A stretch of DNA of 61,415 nt from Euzebya sp. (GTDB taxonomy: Bacteria; Actinomycetota; Nitriliruptoria; Euzebyales; Euzebyaceae): positions 1 through 61,415 of the forward strand of contig NZ_CAXQBR010000097.1 in assembly GCF_964222135.1 (NCBI RefSeq), read 5' to 3'. The notes below the pieces were generated by a model. That model had not been told where the DNA came from, did no database searches, and worked only from the letters and a program-made list of their open reading frames with translations. Within the stretch, counting starts at the first letter, position 1. Each line of letters begins with the position of its first letter. A program made the position numbers and the translations under genes. Of the stretch, positions 50,701 to 56,251 are shown piece by piece.

Positions 50701-51861
50701 TCAGGCGGTCCGGCGGTCCCGCAGGCGGCGTGCGGCGGTGTCGAGCCCGACGGCGAGGACCAGGACCGTGCCGGTCGTCAGGAAGCGGTGCCCCGGCGAC
50801 AGCCCGAGCAGGTCGAGGCCGTTGTCGAGCGACCCGAGCACCAGCGCGCCGGTCAGGGCCGACCAGACCGATCCGCGGCCGCCGTACAGGCTGGCGCCGC
50901 CGATCGCCGCGGCGGCGAACGCGGTCAGGGTCAGGTCGACGCTGCCGGAGGACTGGTTGACCGCGAGCAGCCGTGACGCGCCCAGCACCCCGCCCGCCGC
51001 CGAGACGGTCCCGGCCAGCGCGAAGGTGACGATCCGCACCCGCCGCACCTCGATGCCCGCCCGCTCGGCGACCCGGGCGTCGCTGCCGATCGCCACCGCG
51101 TGGCGGCCGAACGCCGAGCGCTTGAGGACCACGTCGAGCAGCGCGACGACGCCGAGGAAGATCACCACGGCCAGGGGGATCCCGCGGTCGCGCCCGTACA
51201 CCGCCGCTGCGGCGGCCGCGGCCGCGGCGACCAGCGCGATCCGCACGAGGCGGCCGGCCGGCTCGTGCCGCCGACGTGTGAGCCACCAGGCGGCGGTCGT
51301 GGCCGCGGCGACCGCCGACCCGCCGACGACGCCGATCCAGGACGGCAGGAACGTGCTGGTCAGCGCGGCGATGCCGGGGTCGGCCAGGTTGAGGGACCCG
51401 GCGTCGCCGAGGACCAGGAACAGCCCCCCGCGCCACATCAGCAGCCCGGCCAGGGTCACGACGAGGGACGGCAGCGCCAGGGCGGTCACCCCGATGCCGT
51501 GGACCAGGCCCGCGCCGGCGCCCGTGGCGAGCGCGGCGGCCACCGCCACGGGCGCGGGCAGGCCCGTCCGGACCACGAGCACCGCCATCACGGCGGCGGC
51601 GAACCCGCCGACGGCGCCCACGGACAGATCGATCTCCCCGATCAGGAGCACCAGGACGACTGCGACGGCGACCGTGCCGAGCGCCACGCTCTGCAACGTC
51701 AGGTTGGTCAGGTTGACCGCGGACAGGAACCGGCCGTTGAGCAGCTGCAGCCCCGTCCAGAGGACCACGAGCCCCGCGGCGGCCCCGATCCCGGGCAGCG
51801 CGTCGATCGACCAGCGGGCCAGCCGGCCCCGCCGCGTCCCGTCCTCCACGCCCGCGCTCAC
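50701..51861 (-). CDS. sugar ABC transporter permease (XylH-like)
   Basis: A 386-residue permease with about ten membrane helices. The family signature GEIDLSVGAVGGFAA is present (conserved in RbsC/XylH-type permeases), as is the conserved cytoplasmic segment GSDARVAERAGIEVRRVRI and the GGASLYGGRGSVW loop. XylH-type permeases are larger than RbsC and this one fits. The GTG start overlaps the stop of the micro-ORF at 51858. Last gene of the transporter-signalling operon. Confidence 0.92.
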   Translation of the reverse strand: MSAGVEDGTRRGRLARWSIDALPGIGAAAGLVVLWTGLQLLNGRFLSAVNLTNLTLQSVALGTVAVAVVLVLLIGEIDLSVGAVGGFAAAVMAVLVVRTGLPAPVAVAAALATGAGAGLVHGIGVTALALPSLVVTLAGLLMWRGGLFLVLGDAGSLNLADPGIAALTSTFLPSWIGVVGGSAVAAATTAAWWLTRRRHEPAGRLVRIALVAAAAAAAAAVYGRDRGIPLAVVIFLGVVALLDVVLKRSAFGRHAVAIGSDARVAERAGIEVRRVRIVTFALAGTVSAAGGVLGASRLLAVNQSSGSVDLTLTAFAAAAIGGASLYGGRGSVWSALTGALVLGSLDNGLDLLGLSPGHRFLTTGTVLVLAVGLDTAARRLRDRRTA

Positions 51862-51935
51862 CGCCCACCCGCCTGGCTGACGCCAGCCGCGTGCCCCCCG
51901 GCCTGTCCTCTGACCGCTCCCACGCTCGCGCTCAC
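51848..51935 (-). repeat. 88-bp dispersed element, copy 2 (binding protein/permease junction)
   Basis: On the minus strand this aligns position by position with 35848-35761. The last three bases of the binding-protein stop (TGA in CCGTGAG) are part of the first GTGAGCGCGAGCGT; the second copy, GTGAGCGCGGGCGT, gives the permease start. In the middle CTGGC-GTCA-GCCAG can form a 5-bp stem; copy 1 keeps a 4-bp stem with two compensated pairs. Confidence 0.92.
51858..51935 (-). CDS. 25-residue micro-ORF, copy 2, between binding protein and permease
   Basis: A 25-codon GTG frame overlapping the upstream stop (51932-51935) and the downstream start (51858-51861) by 4 bases each. The peptide begins MSASVGAVRGQAGG and ends in QAGGR. 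It shares length and 18 of 25 residues with copy 1 although the flanking genes are unrelated. Confidence 0.6.
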   Translation of the reverse strand: MSASVGAVRGQAGGHAAGVSQAGGR

Positions 51936-53769: not shown

Positions 53770-56251
53770 GTCCCTCCCCCTCCGGCTCGGTCGGCAGGCG
53801 CAGCACGAAGCACGAGCGGCCGTCCCGCGGTTCGCTGGCGAGGGTGCCGCCGTGCGCGTCGGCGACCCCCCGGGCGATGGCCAGGCCCAGCCCGGCGCCG
53901 GGCCGGTCGCCGTCACCGCGGATCCGCGCCTCGAAGATCCGGTCGCCGAGCTCCGGCGGCGGCCCCGGCCCCTCGTCGAGCACGCGGATCTCGAGGACCC
54001 GGTCCCGCGGCGCGGCGATCTCGACCTCCACGGTGCCCCGACCGTGGCGCAGCCCGTTGTCGAGCAGGTTCACGACCACCTGCTCGAGGCGGTCGTGGTC
54101 CGCCCAGATCGGCTCGACGCCCGGCTCGACGACCAACCGCATGCGGTCGCGGTCGGGCAGGCACGCCATCGCGGCCTCTGCGACCAGCCCGGGGTCGCAC
54201 CAGTCGGCGTGCAGCTGCAGCAGCCCCGAGGAGATCGCCGAGGAATCGAGCAGGTCCGAGACCAGGCGCTCCATGCGCTTGGACTCCCGCGCGATCGACT
54301 GGAGGAACGCGTGGGTGGAGGGCGGGTCCCACGTCAGGTCGTCCTGCAGCAGGGTGGAGGCGTAGCCGTGCACGGCGGTCAGGGGAGTCCGCAGCTCGTG
54401 GCTGACCTGGTGCAGCAGGTCCCGGTGGAGCTCGGAGGACCGTCGGAGGGCGGCCGCCTCACGACGCGTCGACTCGAGCTCGTCGGCCTCGAGGGCGAGC
54501 GACAGCGACCGGGCGGCGTCGTCGAGCAGCGCCAGCGCGTCGGTGCCCGCGCCGAGGCCGGTCCCGCCCCCCGGACCCTCGCCGGTCGGCGCCCACACCG
54601 CCACCAGCGCCCCGTCGGAGTCCGGCAGCCGCAGCCGCGCGCCGGCCGCGCCGTCCCACAGCCGGGACGCGGGGCCGTCGCCCGCGCCGCCGAGCACGTC
54701 CGCGGCGGCGGCGGCCAGGCGGGCGTCGGTGGCCTGGTCCAGTCGCCCGTCGGTCACGTCGATGGCGGCTCGCCGGGTCACCGCGTCGCCGTCGACGGCG
54801 TGCACGGCGACGGCGGACGCGCCGAGACCGCGGCACAGGGCGAGCAGCGCGACGGACAGGCCGCCGTGGACCCGCTCAGGTCCGGCGAGGGTCTCGAGCA
54901 TCCCCCGCAGCGCCTCGAGCACCCGGTTGCGATGGCCGAGCTCCTCGACGAGCCGCTGCTGCTCGATCGCAGCGGCGGCGTAGCCGGCGTAGAGCGCGAC
55001 CAGCTCGACCCGCTCGGGTTCGAGCGAGCCGGGTGCGGTCGCGTAGCCGGACACCGTGCCGAGCACGCCGCGGCTGCCGACGATCGGCGCGGCCCACGCC
55101 GACCGGATGCCGCCGGCCTCGGCCTCGCGGCGGAAGGCCTCCCACGACGGGTGGGTCTCGGTGTCCTCGACCACGACCGTGCGGCCCGTCTCTGCCGCCA
55201 CGCCGACCGACCCGCCGCCCGGCCCGACGGGCAGCCGGCCGTTGACGGCGAGCAGCGCGTCGGGCATGCCGACGGCGGCCGACCGGCGCAGCACGGACTC
55301 GCCGGCGGCGGTGCGCTCCAGCAGGTGCACGCACAGCATCTGCTGGTCGATCGCCGACGCCATGCTGGACACGATCAGCGGCAGCGACGCAGCCGGCTCG
55401 ACCTCGCTCAGCTGGTCGACCAGGCTGCGGAGCCGGTCGAGGTCGCGGCGGGCCGCCGAGTCCGGGCGCAGACCCGACATGAGCGCCAGCAGGTCGTCGC
55501 GGTGGACCTCGTGGGGGGCGACGTCCGCCACGGCACGGCCGTCGCGCAGGATGACGATGCGATCCGCCAGCTCGAGCACGAGGTCGAGGTCGTGAGACGT
55601 CAGGAGGATCGCGACGCCGGCGTCGCGCAGCTCGCGGACCAGCCGCATCAAGCCCTCGACGCCGGCGACGCCGAGGGCGGTGGTCGGCTCGTCGAGGACC
55701 AGCAGCCGTGGGTTGCCGAGCAGCGGCCGGGCGATGGCGACGGCCTGCTGCTGGCCGCGCGACAGGGTCCGCACCGGCCGGGACAGGGGCAGGTCGTCCA
55801 GCCCGAGCCGCCCGAGCACGGCGAGCGCGTCCGCCCGCATCGCCCGCTCGCTCAGCAGGCCCCGCCGTCCGGAGGAGCGGCGCCGCTCGCTGCCGAGGAA
55901 GAGGTTCGCGACGACGTCGAGGTCGGGGCACAGGCCGAAGTCCTGCCACACCACCTCGACGCCGGCGCGGCGGACCTCCGCCGGCGTGGTCGGCATCGGG
56001 GTGCCGTCGAGGGTGATCGTGCCGTCCTCGTGGGCGACGGTCCGGGCCAGGCAGCCCACGACGGTCGACTTGCCCGTCCCGTTCTCGCCCAGCAGGCAGA
56101 CGACCTCGCCGGCGGCGATCCGCAGGTCGAGTCCGCGCAGGACGCTGAGGGGCCCGAACCGCTTCGTCAGCCCCTCGACCGCCAGCCGCGACGGCATCGG
56201 ATCGGCCGGGATCGCGTCGGTCGCGGCACGGGCTGGTTCGACTCGGGGCAC
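53753..56251 (-). CDS. ABC ATPase fused to GAF domains and a sensor histidine kinase
   Basis: An 832-residue fusion. An XylG-type ABC domain (about 20-260) has Walker A GENGTGKST (55-63), signature LSRGQQQ (163-169), Walker B LLVLDEP (183-189) and H-loop TSHD. A GAF domain (282-432), a weaker GAF-like part (440-587), HisKA with LLHQVSHELRTPL (His618) and HATPase with VVVNLLDNGLRHG, DEGPGPP, GAGLGLAIARG follow. Transport and kinase motifs all look intact. Normal XylG/RbsA ATPases have two ABC halves; here the kinase takes the place of the second. GTG 56251 lies 9 bases after a TACAGT box. No ribosome-binding site is visible, so it may be leaderless; ATG 56197 is an alternative. Confidence 0.9.
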   Translation of the reverse strand: MPRVEPARAATDAIPADPMPSRLAVEGLTKRFGPLSVLRGLDLRIAAGEVVCLLGENGTGKSTVVGCLARTVAHEDGTITLDGTPMPTTPAEVRRAGVEVVWQDFGLCPDLDVVANLFLGSERRRSSGRRGLLSERAMRADALAVLGRLGLDDLPLSRPVRTLSRGQQQAVAIARPLLGNPRLLVLDEPTTALGVAGVEGLMRLVRELRDAGVAILLTSHDLDLVLELADRIVILRDGRAVADVAPHEVHRDDLLALMSGLRPDSAARRDLDRLRSLVDQLSEVEPAASLPLIVSSMASAIDQQMLCVHLLERTAAGESVLRRSAAVGMPDALLAVNGRLPVGPGGGSVGVAAETGRTVVVEDTETHPSWEAFRREAEAGGIRSAWAAPIVGSRGVLGTVSGYATAPGSLEPERVELVALYAGYAAAAIEQQRLVEELGHRNRVLEALRGMLETLAGPERVHGGLSVALLALCRGLGASAVAVHAVDGDAVTRRAAIDVTDGRLDQATDARLAAAAADVLGGAGDGPASRLWDGAAGARLRLPDSDGALVAVWAPTGEGPGGGTGLGAGTDALALLDDAARSLSLALEADELESTRREAAALRRSSELHRDLLHQVSHELRTPLTAVHGYASTLLQDDLTWDPPSTHAFLQSIARESKRMERLVSDLLDSSAISSGLLQLHADWCDPGLVAEAAMACLPDRDRMRLVVEPGVEPIWADHDRLEQVVVNLLDNGLRHGRGTVEVEIAAPRDRVLEIRVLDEGPGPPPELGDRIFEARIRGDGDRPGAGLGLAIARGVADAHGGTLASEPRDGRSCFVLRLPTEPEGEGHGRAV

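Follow-up and report, generated by a model that had tools for sequence, protein, structure and literature searches.

Gene layout and domain composition of the operon

A four-gene operon of Euzebya sp., in which a histidine kinase is fused to an importer-type ATPase, was analyzed on the 61,415-nt contig NZ_CAXQBR010000097.1 (G000:C97; assembly GCF_964222135.1). The whole contig is called the window here, and the operon lies on its minus strand. Open reading frames and Pfam matches gave the order fusion kinase, response regulator, XylF-like lipoprotein, and permease. The fusion gene (53753..56197, 814 aa) encodes a CUT2-type ATP-binding cassette (ABC) ATPase, a GAF domain, a GAF-like domain, and the HisKA and HATPase_c domains. 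It is followed by an OmpR/KdpE-type response regulator with Asp58 (53023..53769; Response_reg and Trans_reg_C by Pfam). The third gene encodes a XylF-like sugar-binding lipoprotein with a GTG start, the lipobox LAGAC, and a Peripla_BP_4 domain (51932..53020). The last encodes a XylH/GguB-like CUT2 permease with a GTG start and a BPD_transp_2 domain (50701..51861). The last three products had been named in the same way in a first-pass annotation of this DNA, and Pfam and sequence comparison agreed with it.

The kinase stop (53753) and the regulator ATG (53769) overlap by 17 bases, and the regulator stop (53023) is followed after a 2-base gap by the binding-protein GTG (53020). Both values were as annotated, but the gap between the binding-protein and permease genes is 70 bases and was not. 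The fusion frame is uninterrupted over 840 codons (53753–56275, minus strand). The annotated gene end at 56251 is an in-frame GTG, as is 56275; homology favored the ATG at 56197 as the start.

Pfam matched ABC_tran (99.6 bits), GAF_2 (46.6), HisKA (61.1), and HATPase_c (72.0) in the one fusion protein. The ATPase, or nucleotide-binding domain (NBD; 55472..56194, residues 2–242), matched ABC ATPases in fold with Z of ~27–30. Its Walker A (GENGTGKST), Q-loop (WQD), signature (LSRGQ), Walker B (LLVLDEP), and H-loop (SHD) were all present, the signature reading LSRGQ instead of the usual LSGGQ. In the AlphaFold model, signalling helices (residues 248–282) connect the NBD with the first GAF domain (55016..55339, residues 287–394), which was recognized by Pfam GAF_2 and in the predicted model. 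A second, GAF-like domain (54578..54862, residues 446–540) appeared in the AlphaFold model without a Pfam match. The catalytic part with HisKA and HATPase_c (53786..54424) carries the H-box SHELRT with His600, the N-box NLLDNGLRH, and the G boxes (G1/G2). The phospho-acceptor His, the N/G1/G2 ATP boxes, and the receiver Asp expected of a two-component system were all found. The annotated succession of ABC ATPase, GAF, GAF-like, and kinase domains in one protein was confirmed by the single frame, Pfam, and the model. The Walker A/B, signature, H-loop, H-box, and ATP-lid motifs were intact as annotated. The AlphaFold model contained no transmembrane helix, and the fusion is predicted to be a soluble kinase. 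No SLC5 or STAC domain was found in it by Pfam.

The binding protein (Peripla_BP_4, 212.2 bits) and the permease (BPD_transp_2, 86.5 bits) scored above the Pfam gathering cut-offs and are parts of a CUT2 importer. Against the NCBIfam XylF equivalog TIGR02634, the binding protein scored 206.5 bits, below the cut-off of 389.55. Its closest solved structure was E. coli XylF 3m9w (3.3e-49), with which it shares the motifs YDR, NNA/DNA, AND, GQDA (GQDAE), and VYK. This closeness to XylF and the shared motifs point to an aldopentose or similar monosaccharide as the probable substrate. Neighbor genes were uninformative as a substrate clue, because the module lies mostly among unrelated genes. Single hints were a GFO/IDH/MocA dehydrogenase (locus L079) and PfkB/LacI (locus L031).

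The operon is set among housekeeping genes, without sugar catabolism genes (names given by eye from the sequence). Ffh- and FtsY-like signal recognition particle genes flank the region at 45564–47468 and 49389–50639, and an SMC-like gene lies at 58996–61278. The interval that separates the fusion from the upstream gene holds a perfect 11-bp inverted repeat (TCCCTCGACCT/AGGTCGAGGGA) with a 7-base loop and without a U-tract, at 56285–56313. It may serve as a high-GC terminator for the upstream gene. No sigma-70 promoters or U-tract terminators were found in the high-GC operon region.

Distribution of the fusion family, of dedicated ATPases, and of the predicted operator

Full-length homologues of the fusion were found in 18 further genomes at 43–56% identity, and all named ones belonged to Actinomycetota. 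They included two species of the same genus and another family of the same order. A scan with one genome per species matched Microthrix, a Nitriliruptorales metagenome-assembled genome, Frankia, Streptomyces, Micropruina, Acidimicrobiales, and others, and additional members of the phylum gave more matches. The analyzed set comprised 19 fusions; a twentieth (G589) was split over two contigs. The fusion was rare: in one class, 296 genomes were sampled and 9 gave a match, one of these (G579) being to a dedicated ATPase and not to a fusion. The joining of two separate genes by a frameshift or an assembly error, a concern of the first-pass annotation, was ruled out by the full-length homologues. 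A viral or plasmid origin was also rejected: viral contigs gave no match, and plasmids gave one unrelated GAF match.

All 19 fusions keep the same order of parts, and the cognate regulator is always next. The proposed co-occurrence with sugar importer genes was also found, as CUT2 importer genes adjoin the fusion in 18 of 18 operons with enough readable DNA. The catalytic ATPase motifs are intact in all fused NBDs but one (18/19). The fused NBDs formed one clade (support 97/86) apart from single- and double-domain ATPases, and the joining therefore looks like a single old event that has long been maintained. None of the 15 single-domain and five double ATPases compared carries a kinase. The open-licence PubMed Central (PMC) literature gave no description of an ABC-ATPase/histidine-kinase fusion and, as the first-pass annotation had supposed, no characterized system with the same covalent layout. 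As far as found, the fusion family is conserved and apparently undescribed in the open literature.

Some operons of the family hold additional importer genes. In Frankia (L031, 2751–15514), the fusion and regulator are flanked on either side by CUT2 importer genes, and one importer set is preceded by a LacI regulator and followed by a PfkB kinase. Duplicated binding-protein genes stand beside the fusion in L081 (6515–9020), and duplicated binding-protein and permease genes in L082 (6446–12306).

A separate importer ATPase gene was present in 16 of the 18 fusion operons with readable downstream DNA. This dedicated ATPase is single-domain in most operons, whereas Streptomyces L032 and Micropruina L034 have a double-domain form. 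Its frequency indicates that the family consists of sensor kinases that take an importer-ATPase paralogue as input domain, and not of importer motors to which a kinase was added. The first-pass annotation had explained the fusion as a XylG/RbsA ATPase whose second half was swapped for a kinase, and had expected it to serve both transport and signalling. The swap was not favored as a general rule, since separate ATPases are common and usually single-domain, and the fused NBDs do not group with the N-terminal halves of double-NBD ATPases. The double role was likewise not supported across the family; it is possible in the window lineage, where the separate ATPase is absent.

A predicted operator was found directly after the regulator stop in ten loci (L014, L015, L028, L030, L033, L035, L036, L065, L078, and L082). 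It consists of two DTTYAC-N5-DTTYAC direct-repeat pairs whose starts are 31 bp apart, and in L028 it reads GTTCACAAGTCGTTCAC...ATTCACTCTTTGTTCAC. Held-out matrix scores were 31–51 in the ten loci, and the best shuffle was at most 2.3, except 11.9 in AT-rich L082. L080 scored 12.1 against a best shuffle of −11.3, and L034, L079, and L081 had imperfect or shifted versions. The operator was not found in L037 and L086, which are importers without an adjacent fusion. The 11-nt period and the GTTCAC core match the PHO-box type of PhoB/OmpR-family regulators, and the S. coelicolor PHO box consists of 11-nt direct repeats with the core GTTCACC (PMC4415409). Because the shared operator stands between the regulator and importer genes, the regulator probably controls importer transcription in most members. 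The Euzebya regulator scored 188.9 bits against the NCBIfam KdpE equivalog, below the cut-off of 325.

Probable loss of the dedicated ATPase in the window lineage

The dedicated ATPase was absent only in the window operon and in L013 (on the same contig as L029). The window thus lacks the co-encoded single- or double-NBD ATPase of a CUT2 importer: no ATPase gene lies between the binding protein and permease, and the 61-kb contig gave no other ABC_tran match. The binding proteins and permeases of the window and L013 were sisters (support 100/99) and grouped (98/97) with those of L028 and L086, two importers that do have a dedicated ATPase. This grouping suggests that the ATPase was lost in the window lineage, although the tree is unrooted there.

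The output side has also changed. The window and L013 have no operator site and no gap between the regulator and importer genes to hold one. The operator was not found in the window, in the kinase upstream region, or in a scan of the whole genome that allowed ≤3 mismatches and that misses weaker sites in other genomes. Residue 208 in the recognition helix of the regulator is Ala in the window and Arg in 16 of the 17 other members outside the sister L013. The two sister regulators jointly depart from the near-invariant pattern at only two positions, one of which is this Arg to Ala change. In the window lineage, the module is thus compacted and rewired.

The contact faces of the permease and NBD were compared. 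With permeases that have a dedicated ATPase as reference, those of the window and L013 differ from the coupling motif GGNxEAARRAGI at four of the 11 conserved motif positions (P = 0.02). Their NBDs are changed at residues 88, 91, and 92 beside the Q-loop, with P = 0.07 at one threshold and 0.15–0.17 at others; a co-change of the NBD with the permease is suggestive only. No NBD other than the fused one is encoded with the window permease, and this domain may also power the permease. Two fusion chains would then supply both the NBD dimer of the importer and the kinase dimer. After loss of the dedicated ATPase, the permease and fused NBD would have adjusted to each other, as if both contact faces had shifted together. 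One polypeptide would be motor and sensor kinase, and each transport cycle would directly set regulator phosphorylation. The sister-pair grouping and the intact motifs of the window NBD are consistent with this arrangement. However, the interface statistics are weak, the window and L013 lineages are not independent, and another single-domain ATPase is encoded in the genome. We hold this double use in the window lineage to be a tentative possibility, and the evolutionary route through mutual adjustment is put forward equally tentatively.

The L013 fusion (10148–12688) also bears on this question. Its Q-loop Gln is replaced by Gly and its H-loop His by Arg, while the kinase is intact. The fused NBD of L013 probably does not act as a normal motor, which speaks against double use in the pair. 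Since the coupling and catalytic residues were lost there while the binding protein, permease, and kinase remain, the importer could instead have turned into a receptor. In that case, the binding protein and permease would not transport but would report sugar binding to the kinase by way of a docked NBD that hydrolyzes little ATP. The absence of the dedicated ATPase from both operons would fit such a receptor. The available sequence of the L013 genome contained no single-domain ATPase of this class. However, that genome is 64% complete, so the ATPase may lie elsewhere, and the window NBD keeps all catalytic motifs. A receptor without transport is considered rather improbable.

The other single-domain ATPase of the window genome (G000:C43:24992-25747; L037) is stand-alone and the only one of its class there. 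With the dedicated ATPase of L014, an operon from the same genus, it shares 69% identity. It could power the window permease in trans, with the fusion only sensing, as a separate ATPase does this job in the 16 operons described above. A stand-alone XylG elsewhere that serves this transporter had been named in the first-pass annotation as evidence against its interpretation, and a stand-alone ATPase exists. However, it sits within a complete second CUT2 importer operon of its own (binding protein, ATPase, and permease) with a ROK-type regulator upstream. The permease of that operon keeps the coupling motif from which the window permease departs. Supply in trans is considered unlikely. Compared with the window importer, the one encoded in this second operon is closer to that of L014.

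Proposed mechanism and comparison with known systems

For the family as a whole, we lean cautiously towards reading the fusion as a soluble sensor kinase that is coupled to the transporter. It would read the importer state through its ATPase domain and send its regulator output to the importer operator. The fused NBD, a paralogue of CUT2 ATPases, would dock on the CUT2 permease, either alone or paired with a dedicated ATPase. The importer state (sugar-loaded binding protein, NBD closure, and ATP turnover) would reach the kinase by way of the helical linker and the two GAF domains, with the signal presumably running from importer to kinase. The kinase would phosphorylate the KdpE-like regulator. 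In most members, this regulator would act on the double direct-repeat operator before the importer genes. The loop would thereby be closed, with sugar uptake setting importer expression.

Several points weigh against this coupling. Docking of the NBD on the permease is only a prediction. The losses in the L013 NBD imply that hydrolysis is not needed everywhere. Five members other than the window and L013 had weak operator matches at most, and sites were weak or none in L031, L032, and L083. The GAF domains could be the real sensor of an intracellular ligand, as the kinase is soluble and has two of them. ABC ATPases without a membrane partner exist, and the fused NBD might accordingly make no contact with the transporter, being a cytosolic dimerization switch driven by ATP/ADP or a relic. 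The ratio of nonsynonymous to synonymous substitution rates (dN/dS) in close pairs was 0.01–0.18 for the fused NBD and 0.09–0.15 for the dedicated ATPase. These low values indicate a domain under purifying selection and not a relic. The Q-loop stretch that meets the permease was the best-conserved part between fused and dedicated ATPases, and the CUT2-type NBD always stands beside a CUT2 permease. An NBD without transporter contact was judged improbable.

Sensory complexes of an ABC transporter and a histidine kinase are known from BceAB-BceS (PMC10314905; PMC8534201) and PstSCAB-PhoU-PhoR (PMC4415409). As in the fusion module, the transporter and kinase of BceAB-BceS(R) form one sensory unit that controls transporter expression (PMC10314905; PMC8534201). 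However, BceS is a separate, small membrane kinase with transmembrane contacts to an exporter-type transporter with an FtsX/MacB-like permease. The fusion is a soluble GAF kinase covalently joined to an importer ATPase, beside a BPD_transp_2 permease. In PstSCAB-PhoU-PhoR/PhoB, an importer is also involved in signalling to a kinase, which acts on the importer's own operon via 11-nt direct repeats (PMC4415409). There, however, contact is made through PhoU, not through a fused ATPase, and phosphate is the ligand. In the SLC5/STAC kinases (CbrA, CrbS, and RpuS), the kinase is likewise fused to a transporter part, and the regulated importer is driven from an imperfect direct repeat (PMC9100948). 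There the whole secondary symporter is fused, whereas the fusion described here has only the NBD of a primary transporter, with the binding protein and permease separate.

In XylFII-LytS-YesN, a two-component system receives information on external sugar from a XylF-type binding protein (PMC6321045). That binding protein touches an extracellular kinase domain, whereas the fusion kinase has no extracellular part. By sequence, the closest solved structures were KdpD/KdpE for the kinase core (6lgq_C) and regulator (6lgq_D and 4kny), but KdpD has Usp and transmembrane parts and no ABC ATPase. The binding protein, permease, and NBD are of the same class as those of the CUT2 importers XylFGH, RbsABC, and FrcABC, whose ATPases are stand-alone proteins with one or two NBDs. 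By analogy, the fusion module would work like BceAB-BceS, PstSCAB-PhoR, and the SLC5/STAC kinases, but it is a member of none of them.

Transporter-coupled sensing has so far usually been inferred from loose complexes such as Bce and Pst. The fusion family offers a natural series: fusion with a dedicated ATPase, fusion alone with an intact NBD, and fusion alone with a degenerate NBD. If the NBD is the kinase input, the effect of the transport cycle on kinase activity would be directly testable in a soluble protein, with the predicted operator as the read-out.

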